From Candidatus Gastranaerophilales bacterium (lineage in GTDB: Bacteria; Cyanobacteriota; Vampirovibrionia; Gastranaerophilales; Gastranaerophilaceae), in NCBI GenBank assembly GCA_944323035.1, contig CALUQY010000005.1, positions 1 through 64,000 on the forward strand: a stretch of 64,000 bases of DNA, in the 5' to 3' direction. Position 1 is the first letter of the stretch. Each line of letters opens with the position of its first letter. Shown here one piece after another: positions 37,303 to 41,645 of the stretch. Both the position numbers and the translations under genes were made by a program. The notes below the pieces were generated by a model. The model saw only the letters and a program-made list of their open reading frames with translations, was not told where the DNA came from and did not search any database.

Positions 37303-37331
37303 TTGAAAAAAATTTTTCAGCGTTTTATATT
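37303..37331 (+). promoter_or_regulatory. Promoter TTGAAA-N17-TATATT before the His-rich peptide
   Basis: -35 at 37303-37308 and -10 at 37326-37331, spacer 17 bp. A CCGGCTCAGCCGG palindrome (37290-37302) abuts the -35 box. Confidence 0.55.
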
Positions 37332-37363
37332 AGAGGTGTAGTAGATAAAAGGAAAAGATTTAC

Positions 37364-37417
37364 ATGTTTACTCCAAGCGTAAAACGACATCATCATAGCC
37401 ATCATCATTGCCATTAA
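37364..37417 (+). CDS. 17-residue His-rich leader peptide
   Basis: MFTPSVKRHHHSHHHCH: seven of the last nine residues are His, one Cys and one Ser. An AAAAGGAAAAG ribosome site lies seven bases upstream, and a good promoter 33 bases upstream of the ATG. The last codon and stop form the 5' arm of a 19-bp hairpin (37413-37489). Order promoter - peptide with a run of one codon type - hairpin - gene is that of an attenuator such as the his operon leader. A metal-binding peptide is an alternative. Too short for comparison with known families. Confidence 0.55.
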   Translation: MFTPSVKRHHHSHHHCH

Positions 37418-37489
37418 GGCGTGGTTATAATGTGTTTTGCGCAAAAAATGTTATGCACCCCACAATTTCACATTACCCACGGCCTTAAT
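37413..37489 (+). promoter_or_regulatory. Long hairpin overlapping the leader-peptide stop
   Basis: Arms ATTAAGGC-GTGG-TTA-TAATGTG (37413-37434) and CACATTA-C-CCAC-G-GCCTTAAT (37469-37489) pair over 19 bp with one internal loop and one bulge. No T-run follows, so it may act on translation or anti-termination, not as a simple terminator. Confidence 0.55.
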
Positions 37490-37535
37490 CGGTTAAATTT
37501 TAGTGGTTTGATAGTGAAATTGGAGAAAATTAAAA

Positions 37536-38825
37536 ATGTCGATTATAAATATAATTTCAGCGATAGGCAATAATAACAGCGTTTACCCTTTACTTGTCCG
37601 CGATTGCGGTATAGAGGTTCCGACAAAAGTTGCGCTGACTTATAACCAGAACAAAGATGATAAAGAGGTTGCGTGGCTTGCAACGCGTGAGCGTCTTGTT
37701 GATGAATATACGGTTTCTGCGGTGTGGCTTGGCGGAATCCCGCTTCTTGAACGGATTAATGCTAAAATCCTTAAAAACAGAGGCTTTAATCCGTCTATCA
37801 GCACAAAATTGATGAAAGAAGAGGCAGAGCAAGGCCTTGAATTTAACATTAAGAAATTCAAAAATCTGGCACCTGAGGCGGTTAAAGATCTTGAATTCTT
37901 AAAAGCTAATCAGGCTAAGTACAAAAAACTTATCGGCTCTAAAATTCTGGCTGAAACAGCTATCCCGATTGCATTAATGGGATTTATTATTCCTAAACTT
38001 ATCTTTGCGTGGACTGCTAATACAAAAAAAGAACTTGCTAAAAAGAAAGAAACGTCACGTATTAGTGAAAATATTAATAAAATGTCACCAAATAGTGATG
38101 TTTATATTCCAAAAATGAAAAATATGTCTGATTTTGCGAACAATGCACAGGGTTTGACTTTTGGTAACGGAATTCTTTCTAGCATGGCTAATTTGTCTAC
38201 AGTTCAGAAAATGGCTCTGACTGACGGCGGTTATGCTGTCGGGCGTATTGCGACTGCGCGTAAGAAAAATGAAGCCTATGATATCGGGTTTAAAATGGCC
38301 GGTATGATGTTTTTGAACTTTGTGTTCCCGAAATATCTTGCGAAATTTCTTGATAAGACCACCGGACGCGCTATTAAGTCCAATCTCAATCTGGATATTA
38401 AAATGCTTGATGACAAGGAATTTATTGACGCTATAAAAAATAAGAAACTTGCGCTTCCTGACGCTAAAAGCGGTAAAGAACTTCTTGATTTTGTCGACAA
38501 AAATCCGGATAGTTTATTCGTAAAATATGCGAATAAGTATAAAAAGGTTACAATGCTTGAAAACGGTGTTCGCGATCCCCGCCGTTACGTTGATTTGAAT
38601 GCATTGAAAGGCTTCCGCGATGATATTGCCGAAATTTCACAAAATGCGCTGAAAACCGGTGATATAACTAAATTTATGAAAAAGGCAAAAATTATGAAAG
38701 GGGTTAATATCCTTGCAAACGTTGGAATAAGCAGCTTCCTGCTTGCCTATGGACTTCCGAAAGCACAGTTCGCATTCAGAAAATTAATAACAGGTTCCGA
38801 ACTTGAACCGGGAATTATTGACTAA
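37536..38825 (+). CDS. Uncharacterised membrane-associated protein
   Basis: 429 aa; family not recognised. Hydrophobic segments at about residues 140-160 (AETAIPIALMGFIIPKLIFAW), 245-265 (MAGMMFLNFVFPKYLAKF) and near the end (GVNILANVGISSFLLAYGLP); the rest is basic and helical. The repeated Ile/Val-Pro-Lys turns after hydrophobic runs are notable. It has a GGAGAAAATT ribosome site and is preceded by the His-rich leader and hairpin, which may control it. Two uncharacterised genes follow on the same strand. Confidence 0.6.
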   Translation: MSIINIISAIGNNNSVYPLLVRDCGIEVPTKVALTYNQNKDDKEVAWLATRERLVDEYTVSAVWLGGIPLLERINAKILKNRGFNPSISTKLMKEEAEQGLEFNIKKFKNLAPEAVKDLEFLKANQAKYKKLIGSKILAETAIPIALMGFIIPKLIFAWTANTKKELAKKKETSRISENINKMSPNSDVYIPKMKNMSDFANNAQGLTFGNGILSSMANLSTVQKMALTDGGYAVGRIATARKKNEAYDIGFKMAGMMFLNFVFPKYLAKFLDKTTGRAIKSNLNLDIKMLDDKEFIDAIKNKKLALPDAKSGKELLDFVDKNPDSLFVKYANKYKKVTMLENGVRDPRRYVDLNALKGFRDDIAEISQNALKTGDITKFMKKAKIMKGVNILANVGISSFLLAYGLPKAQFAFRKLITGSELEPGIID

Positions 38826-39731: not shown

Positions 39732-41645
39732 ATGGGCGGCAATGGCGTAACTACAGGTTCGTTGTTAAATCAACGGGTTTATAGTAAAAAGACGGCTACC
39801 ACCTCCGGAGCAAAAAAAGGAGGCGGCGTACAAACGAACGCGCTTATTCAAACCCGTGTTACTCTTGCAAACCGGTCAGGGAATGGTAAAAGGGCCGGAT
39901 TGTATACCTCTTTAAGTAACCAGATAAACGGACGTAAAGAAGTTATTTATGTCGGCGGCCAATCCTGCTGCGGTCAGGCTAAGATGAGTACTGCAGATAA
40001 GATTGCAATGTATATGTCTATTGCTCAGGCCGGAGTACAACTGGGTCAGGGTATTGCTGATATTGTCGGCGCGTTTAAGGCGGATAAGTCTGACGGTACA
40101 ACACCTAGACAAACAGTTACTCCGGATTCTACCCCTAAAGTCGATAACGGATTAGCCTCCACGCTAGACTCTTTGGGCTTTGCCGATATTGAATTTACTG
40201 ATGTTAATTATAAAGAAGCGGCTAATGACTTCATGAGTCAAATGAAGAAGGCTGATAATTCTCAGGATTTATATCAGGCATTGCAAGGTGCAAAAGCATA
40301 TAAGGCACAGGTTGATTCCCGTATGTCAAGGATTAATATTGGTAGTCTGAACACACAATTGGAAACCTTAAAAGGTGAAGCGGAAGGCTCAATAGATATG
40401 GCTGAAAAGAAGGTAAGCAATGCTGATAAAGGAGTCAGAGATGCCGAAAGTAATGTAAAACAAGGCCAAAGACAGGTAGATAGCGCACGTGACAGTTATG
40501 ATGCAGCTAGACAAAGTGTAAAAACTGACAATAAGGCTTATAATGATGCATCAAAAGCTGTTGATGAAAAAACTAGTGAATATGACAAAGCTGGTAAAGC
40601 ATTAGATACAGCAAGGAAAAATTATAGCACAGCTCAAACCGCTACTAAAGAATGTACGCAAGCCTGGGAAACCGCGAAATTAAATACTTCTCAAGCTTTG
40701 GCTAACCTCAATGCACTGAAGGCTCAACAGGGATTGGGTACGGATGGTGTTGCATTGCAAGCTCAAATAGCTGACGCTCAGGCTCAATATGATGCGGCAG
40801 TTCAAGCTGAAAAATCTGCTGAAGAAGCTAAAAATCAGGCGGAAGCAAATGAAGCTAAAGCCAAAGATGCACTTGGTGATGACAGCAAAGGTGCAGTACA
40901 GGCCTTTAATAATGCTAAATCTCAATTAGCTACTGCAAGAGATGAATTGAAAGCGGCGGCTGAGCAACTCAAAAACAGTAAAGAGATTACGCAAGACCAA
41001 TATGATTTATTGACTAATCGACAAGAGTCAGTTAGTAAAGCTGAAACAAATTTAGAAACTCAAAATGAGGCCTTAACACAAGCTAAGGAACAGCAAGCTG
41101 GTGCACAGGCTAAACTGGATGAGCTTAATGATGAACGTGATCGAATCAAAACACAAATTAGTGATTATAACGAAATGAAGGAGGCTTCTGAAAAATTAAG
41201 CGATTTGAGTCAATATGAAACTAAGTTACAGGATATGATGAAGAAAGAAGGCATCGAACGTGATGAATTGACTAGAAAGTTGAATGAACGTGATGCTGAA
41301 TCTAATAATACGGAAGGTGTCAGCGCCAAAGGTCGTAGAAAAGCTGAAAAGAAAGAAGATAAGCTGACAGATAAATTAACTGAATTAAATGCCGGTGATG
41401 CAACAGATGATATTGCTAGAGATAAAAAGACACAAATTAGTAATGCTCTTGATAAAATGGCAGACATTTCTTCAGGTATAGGTTTAATGGGCGGTACAAA
41501 TAAACGAACTATAAACGGTCATACAGTTGAATATAAGAATAACCAATATTTTGTTGACGGTGGTACGCAGGGTATGGACAAGGCCAGCGCCGAAATGTTA
41601 GTTAACATGCAGGCTTTTACTAAACCAAAAATGCCGTTTGCATAG
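39732..41645 (+). CDS. Long coiled-coil protein with LNQR...GVQT N-terminal motif
   Basis: 637 aa. N-terminal targeting-like motif SLLNQRVY...GGVQTNALIQ (residues 10-42), a SCCGQAK pair of cysteines near residue 77, then an amphipathic segment (KIAMYMSIAQAGVQLGQGIAD). Residues about 190-560 are a long Ala/Lys/Glu/Gln coiled coil with heptads (DARRSVK-like and AQADAQYDAAVQA-like periods), ending in a short globular C-terminus. Its composition and layout recall bacterial coiled-coil surface or secretion-substrate proteins, but no family is recognised. No Sec signal. GAGAGAG ribosome site; a strong terminator follows. Confidence 0.65.
   Translation: MGGNGVTTGSLLNQRVYSKKTATTSGAKKGGGVQTNALIQTRVTLANRSGNGKRAGLYTSLSNQINGRKEVIYVGGQSCCGQAKMSTADKIAMYMSIAQAGVQLGQGIADIVGAFKADKSDGTTPRQTVTPDSTPKVDNGLASTLDSLGFADIEFTDVNYKEAANDFMSQMKKADNSQDLYQALQGAKAYKAQVDSRMSRINIGSLNTQLETLKGEAEGSIDMAEKKVSNADKGVRDAESNVKQGQRQVDSARDSYDAARQSVKTDNKAYNDASKAVDEKTSEYDKAGKALDTARKNYSTAQTATKECTQAWETAKLNTSQALANLNALKAQQGLGTDGVALQAQIADAQAQYDAAVQAEKSAEEAKNQAEANEAKAKDALGDDSKGAVQAFNNAKSQLATARDELKAAAEQLKNSKEITQDQYDLLTNRQESVSKAETNLETQNEALTQAKEQQAGAQAKLDELNDERDRIKTQISDYNEMKEASEKLSDLSQYETKLQDMMKKEGIERDELTRKLNERDAESNNTEGVSAKGRRKAEKKEDKLTDKLTELNAGDATDDIARDKKTQISNALDKMADISSGIGLMGGTNKRTINGHTVEYKNNQYFVDGGTQGMDKASAEMLVNMQAFTKPKMPFA

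Follow-up and report, generated by a model that had tools for sequence, protein, structure and literature searches.

A short open reading frame (ORF) rich in histidine codons, together with the RNA that follows it, very probably forms a ribosome-mediated histidine-codon attenuator, through which a starvation protein specific to the lineage is turned on. Named relatives of the gene place the DNA in Candidatus Gastranaerophilales. The element lies in the window, that is, the whole stretch of 64,000 nucleotides that was analysed, directly in front of a gene for a histidine-free protein of 429 aa. Sequence comparison among relatives supports the leader, its reading frame, the alternative helices, the strand that pairs with the Shine-Dalgarno (SD) region, the absence of histidine-biosynthesis markers from the genus and the loss of histidine from the product.

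Organization of the leader region

The predicted parts of the region and the basis for each are as follows.

37303–37331, + strand: predicted sigma-70-type promoter, TTGAAA-N17-TATATT, with 10 of 12 consensus matches
37350–37353, + strand: AGGA, at which ribosomes probably bind for the leader ORF, 10 bases upstream of its ATG (sequence)
37364–37417, + strand: predicted leader ORF MFTPSVKRHHHSHHHCH, 17 codons (His frame open from the ATG in 94 of 94 leaders)
37388–37414, + strand: His run HHHSHHHCH, with seven His codons, every one CAT
37377–37390, + strand: 5' arm of hairpin A, spanning the codons before the His run and reaching into it (minimum-energy fold)
37430–37442, + strand: 3' arm of hairpin A (minimum-energy fold; equivalent helix elsewhere without covariation)
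37413–37434, + strand: 5' arm of hairpin B, the putative anti-sequestering stem (12-bp inner stem 98.6% paired in six genus sequences)
37469–37489, + strand: 3' arm of hairpin B (sequence, folding and genus alignment)
37463–37471, + strand: CAATTTCAC, strand predicted to sequester the SD region (stem C), overlapping hairpin B (fold)
37514–37522, + strand: GTGAAATTG, partner of CAATTTCAC, reaching into the SD (fold and sequence)
37522–37525, + strand: GGAG, SD of the 429-aa gene (sequence)
37536–38825, + strand: gene for the 429-aa protein (no His in 429 residues; helical in AlphaFold; no family match)

The leader peptide reads M F T P S V K R H H H S H H H C H stop. The promoter, ribosome site, ATG and peptide ending in HHHSHHHCH that the first-pass annotation had reported are all present in the sequence. 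Promoter-like matches are frequent by chance (three in the sequence versus a mean of 1.7 in shuffles), and all five genus-mates with a leader show, by eye, a similar promoter upstream of it. The annotation had also described a 19-bp hairpin in front of the gene. A hairpin is indeed present at 37413–37434/37469–37489, but our reading of the sequence gives 18 pairs in three blocks (7+4+7) separated by two small internal loops, not 19 pairs in one run. The last leader codons do lie in its 5' arm, which begins inside the final His codon. What had been overlooked is that the 3' arm of this hairpin overlaps CAATTTCAC, the partner of GTGAAATTG at the SD. Stem C, formed by these two strands, is kept in six of six genus sequences, with one one-sided change.

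Conservation of the leader across orthologues

Counting paralogues, 64 of 99 genomes contain a relative of the 429-aa protein (E ≤ 0.001). The sample for leader comparison combined 30 loci from this search, the top 80 among 258 named loci and one further copy of the window; its 111 loci gave 95 distinct upstream regions and lean to the closest orthologues. An ATG-started His-rich leader, that is, a predicted short ORF in which codons for a single amino acid are clustered as in amino-acid attenuators, was found in 94 of the 95 distinct upstream regions, many of which come from close relatives and are not independent counts. The only exception, L031, belongs to another family and carries another type of leader. 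The CAT run that the first-pass annotation had singled out is thus conserved in relatives, and no relative was found with the hairpin and without the peptide, the pattern that it had named as refuting its reading. Five of the records carrying the 429-aa gene (L035, L068, L061, L095, L100) are titled Fusobacterium, Clostridia, Brachyspira or Clostridiaceae; these are probably mislabelled Gastranaerophilales.

Each leader contains three to seven histidines. An ATG-started open frame exists in the His frame of every leader, compared with three and zero leaders for the other two frames, and this frame is kept while the start position and length of the leader vary. An SD-like triplet precedes 58 of the 94 leaders; in the remaining ones the ATG lies near a promoter-like -10 element (by eye). 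The residues flanking the His run differ freely among genera, the His codon being the constant feature.

Alternative RNA structures

The downstream RNA occurs in three sequence versions. Class I comprises the six sequences of the window genus, which have no terminator and only the SD-sequestering strand CAATTTCAC. Seven sequences (L015, L049, L070, L071, L080, L083 and L104) make up class III, where the strand that pairs with the SD region is CTTTTTTCGTT. The other 81 sequences are class II; here the end of the leader ORF (CCTGAAAAGGCTRT and variants) base-pairs with AYAGCCTTTTCAGG, a strand that doubles as the 5' arm of a terminator. By their predicted pairing, the three classes are different in sequence and one in logic.

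The terminator score exceeded the 95th percentile of shuffles in 57 of the 94 leaders, of which 56 were kept (L006 was dropped, its match being the class I hairpin). Covariation was tested in 34 of these 56 class II leaders, the rest being excluded for another stem length or as near-duplicates. In the antiterminator, 92.2% of cells were paired versus 83.9% in shuffles, with 82 double-changed cells versus 26.8, and none of 500 shuffles did as well. The terminator, on the same strand, had 93.2% of cells paired and 55 double-changed cells versus 14.0, again unequalled in 500 shuffles. Covariation in both helices was far above shuffles and slid controls alike, and RNAalifold recovered the antiterminator unaided. 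One strand covarying with two partners is the signature of a switch in class II. Pairing of a leader with its own strand also exceeded that with strands swapped between species (30.5 versus 17.0, 56 leaders). The pairing of strands 1 and 2 was above the 99th percentile of shuffles in 46 of 56 leaders and failed in ten, the 56 representing 45 distinct stems.

For the SD-sequestering stem, 79 of 94 leaders scored above the 95th percentile of shuffles and 61 above the 99th, with 15 below threshold. Together with the class II covariation, this gives two mutually exclusive structures downstream of the leader, one of which would switch the gene off. The class I stems are kept in all six sequences, which are too invariant for covariation.

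In the window, the leader as a whole is more stable than expected by chance (z = -2.83; one of 200 shuffles as good), and the hairpin region alone (37413–37545) is unremarkable (z = -0.67). It is the conservation of the leader, in 94 of 95 distinct upstream regions, that raises the observation above chance. When most of the leader ORF was removed, the centroid fold was hairpin B and the minimum-energy fold still sequestered the SD region. In equilibrium folding, mean SD accessibility was 0.433 with a ribosome stalled at the second His codon, 0.363 with a ribosome at the stop codon and 0.397 without a ribosome; these changes are weak (p = 0.008 and 0.39). A plain terminator reading of the window hairpin was rejected, there being no terminator-like site.

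Folded at minimum energy, the whole leader has both its His codons and the SD region paired. The first of these features would also suit regulation by a structured RNA, with an incidental ORF and with CAT repeats that serve only for pairing, as would the GATGATG-like stretch that follows the leader stop in many relatives. However, an RNA of this kind does not account for a His frame that is open in 94 of 94 leaders despite varying start positions and lengths. Moreover, in other genera the helix that corresponds to hairpin A and covers the His codons does not covary, and hairpin A is thus unsupported as a conserved part. We consider such a purely structural role extremely improbable.

Histidine pathway and composition of the product

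The first-pass annotation had left a choice between an unsuspected link of the gene to histidine and a peptide that senses a metal. The first is strongly supported by the in-frame His run, the alternative structures, the lack of pathway markers and the histidine-free product. HisD, HisB and HisG were not found in any of the seven genomes of the window genus, which are 95–99.9% complete. All seven gave short, weak matches to PF00977 (HisA/HisF), which we read as other barrel proteins. In family f1, HisD was absent from 27 of the 29 genomes with the gene (strong orthologue, E about 1e-55 or better) and present in two, compared with 16 of 31 genomes without the gene, the other 15 lacking both (p = 0.00018, descent ignored). 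Counted per genus, HisD was present in two of 17 genera with the gene versus 13 of 24 without it (p = 0.008, descent ignored).

The window protein has no histidine in its 429 residues. Among 94 orthologues, 71 have none, 18 have one, four have two and one has three, which amounts to 29 histidines in 40,780 residues when 722 would be expected at the background frequency (0.07% versus 1.77%). The orthologues are also poor in Cys. Histidine-free proteins were not seen among 84 background ORFs of 350–550 aa, nor among 21 paralogues with the other leader, whose histidine content is 0.90%. Low use of the cognate amino acid has been described for biosynthetic enzymes (PMC4209129). Such a composition is what would be expected of a protein made in histidine famine.

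For the metal-sensing explanation, a His-rich nascent peptide would bind zinc, copper or nickel, and the ribosome would thereby be stalled or released. Runs of histidine bind metals, and the 90 distinct leaders together have six Cys residues inside their runs. However, the other replacements in these runs are mainly N, L, S, I, Y and Q, mostly non-ligands, and never Asp or Glu. A peptide of about 17–25 residues, the length of these leaders, would still be within the ribosome exit tunnel. No metal-related family was recognized in the product or the scanned flanking genes, and the product is nearly free of histidine and poor in Cys, a composition that, like the histidine auxotrophy, fits histidine instead. 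A metal sensor is therefore unsupported, and we regard it as highly unlikely. Overall, what the first-pass annotation observed is confirmed and its interpretation is partly supported.

Codon choice in the His run

The leader His codons are strongly biased towards CAT (394 CAT versus 26 CAC; 94% of 420 codons at 94 loci), in contrast to the ORFs of loci L037–L111 (1,275 CAT versus 894 CAC; 59% CAT). Leader Asn codons show no such shift (50% U-ending versus 64% in ORFs of the same loci). This bias would be consistent with a run that senses how CAU is decoded, with the queuosine state of tRNA-His as one example, instead of or besides the supply of histidine: poorly modified tRNA-His would read CAU slowly and the gene would be turned on. 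According to PMC9471426, unmodified tRNA-His favours CAC and the queuosine form reads both codons. The queuosine enzyme Tgt was found in 55 of 59 genomes, including all seven of the window genus. However, this explanation leaves both the loss of histidine from the product and the loss of the pathway in the genus unaccounted for, and the choice of CAT could instead serve RNA pairing or merely make the run slow. Compared with a leader that gauges histidine supply through charged tRNA-His, we judge it unlikely.

Paralogues and a second type of leader

Paralogues at roughly 25–35% identity have a different leader, ending in N-L-x-W-G-L-stop, which was found in 30 of 31 upstream regions checked (29 distinct); the remaining one, L169, is cut off. 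These loci are L131–L150, L161–L170 and L031, and the copy in the window's own genome is L131/L196, on contig C19 of G000. One of the seven genomes of the window genus (G005) lacks the gene with the His leader and has only the paralogue with the WGL leader. Since the search pattern fixed W-G-L-stop, the evidence lies in the preceding N and L, which were not searched for and are each present in 29 of 29 leaders. The Gly codon of these leaders varies (GGT 12, GGC 8, GGA 5, GGG 4) and the last Leu uses five different codons. Conserved N and L residues along with free synonymous codons indicate selection on the peptide itself, and the NLxWGL-stop leader is a candidate arrest peptide. Limitation of Trp as its signal was disfavoured, Trp content being 0.74 of background in these proteins versus 0.79 in the His branch. 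In a third, more distant group (L151–L160, ten upstream regions), no NLxWGL-type leader was seen among the short ORFs listed.

In a tree of 47 proteins, one branch with support 1.0 splits the His-leader from the WGL-leader proteins, and a single change of leader thus suffices for the pattern. The putative arrest peptides of the paralogues suggest that the His leader itself might act through nascent-chain arrest or as a general sensor of ribosome slowing, its His run being a difficult sequence and not a gauge of tRNA-His. However, the free variation between genera of the residues around the constant His codon argues against it, and a product that has lost its histidines points to histidine. We accordingly give this explanation very little weight.

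The 429-aa protein and its surroundings

The 429-aa protein matched no Pfam or NCBIfam family, and its best hit in a sequence-profile search of the PDB had an E value of 0.2, with no family. The AlphaFold model is all helical, with a mean pLDDT of 80.5. Foldseek found nothing at E ≤ 0.001 for this model, and the best VIA-align Z score was 7.6, which may mean little for helical models. Two hydrophobic stretches, at about residues 132–163 and 386–408, suggest association with the membrane; a membrane-associated starvation function is our guess from these two predicted helices.

A cluster with RelA/SpoT as its tested member neighbours the gene at 39 of 81 loci (L032–L111 and the window), and one with a sodium:alanine symporter as its tested member does so at 38 of 81, both on the opposite strand; these may reflect mere synteny. 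Downstream in the window (39732–41645), a 637-aa coiled-coil-rich protein gives weak SMC-like matches and has relatives at six of 81 loci.

Search for further copies

The covariance model R1, built from class II, matched 24 of 99 genomes, each of them once. By coordinates, each of the 22 strong matches lies directly upstream of its own genome's orthologue; the other two are weak (E about 0.08). A wider regulon was accordingly rejected for the class II model in these 99 genomes. The model finds nothing in the window genus and is silent on further class I copies. Scanning the window's own genome with CAYCAYNNNCAYCAY gave nine matches, none of which, apart from that in the window, lies in a convincing short leader ORF. 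The Rfam model RF00514 had no match in the window at the gathering score and none among eight loci at E ≤ 10. In the open-access literature searched, we found neither a description of this element nor one of leader-peptide attenuation in Gastranaerophilales or Melainabacteria.

Proposed mechanism and significance

In the mechanism that we infer, which extends to transcription, ribosome stalling, the direction of control and induction, plentiful charged tRNA-His would allow the ribosome to cross the CAT run to the leader stop, where it would mask the anti-structure's 5' arm. This would leave the downstream strand free to pair with the SD region, and the gene would be off. In most other genera, an intrinsic terminator would form as well, the freed strand pairing with its 3' arm, with the same outcome. 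When histidine is short, the ribosome would stall within the CAT run and the arm just past the run would stay free, forming hairpin B in the window genus or the antiterminator in other genera. Either structure would capture the sequestering or terminating strand, and the gene would be on. Control would be exerted on translation and, in most genera, on transcription too. Since the product has no histidine, its synthesis can go on during the shortage that would induce it.

Leader-peptide attenuation usually serves the making, importing or charging of the same amino acid. Here, most of the bacteria with the element have no histidine pathway, and the element would guard one protein stripped of histidine. 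The chances seem to us about even that, more broadly, histidine-auxotrophic gut bacteria keep a dedicated famine gene, with paralogues under different stalling leaders, an arrest-like NLxWGL-stop peptide in one branch and, in the other, a CAU-histidine run before a protein purged of histidine; the strongest form of this reading has the leader as a sensor of CAU decoding, the queuosine state of tRNA-His included. As part of the same reading, histidine shortage would lead to a membrane-associated response and not to a biosynthetic pathway. The timing of the protein's production, at histidine famine, can be predicted without knowing its function, and an auxotroph's answer to a shortage of the amino acid it cannot make becomes testable. 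The paralogues suggest that one gene family can bear different sensors.

Comparison with known systems

The closest familiar counterpart is hisL, the leader of the enterobacterial his operon (RF00514), which likewise has a short peptide with a His run and mutually exclusive antiterminator and terminator, the position of the ribosome deciding between them. However, the present element gives no match to that model and lies before a gene outside the his pathway; moreover, SD sequestration is all that the window genus has, the host genus has no his pathway and the product is free of histidine. It is thus like a his attenuator in its proposed working, yet outside RF00514. Candidate his attenuators of Firmicutes, with three to five consecutive His codons, a terminator and an antiterminator, are described in PMC9413887, which also mentions attenuators that sequester the ribosome site. 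They share with the present element the His-run leader peptide and the terminator/antiterminator pair; compared by this description, they precede histidine biosynthesis operons, whereas here the target is a lineage-specific protein without a family. Arrest peptides of the TnaC type resemble the second leader of the paralogues, which is conserved as a peptide up to its stop; for the His leader we propose a different mechanism, and we claim no sequence relation. In the translational attenuators of ermC and ermB, a ribosome stalled in the leader by a drug frees the SD of the next gene. The proposed freeing of a downstream SD by a stalled leader ribosome is of the same kind, except that the stall would come from a lack of charged tRNA-His instead of a drug.
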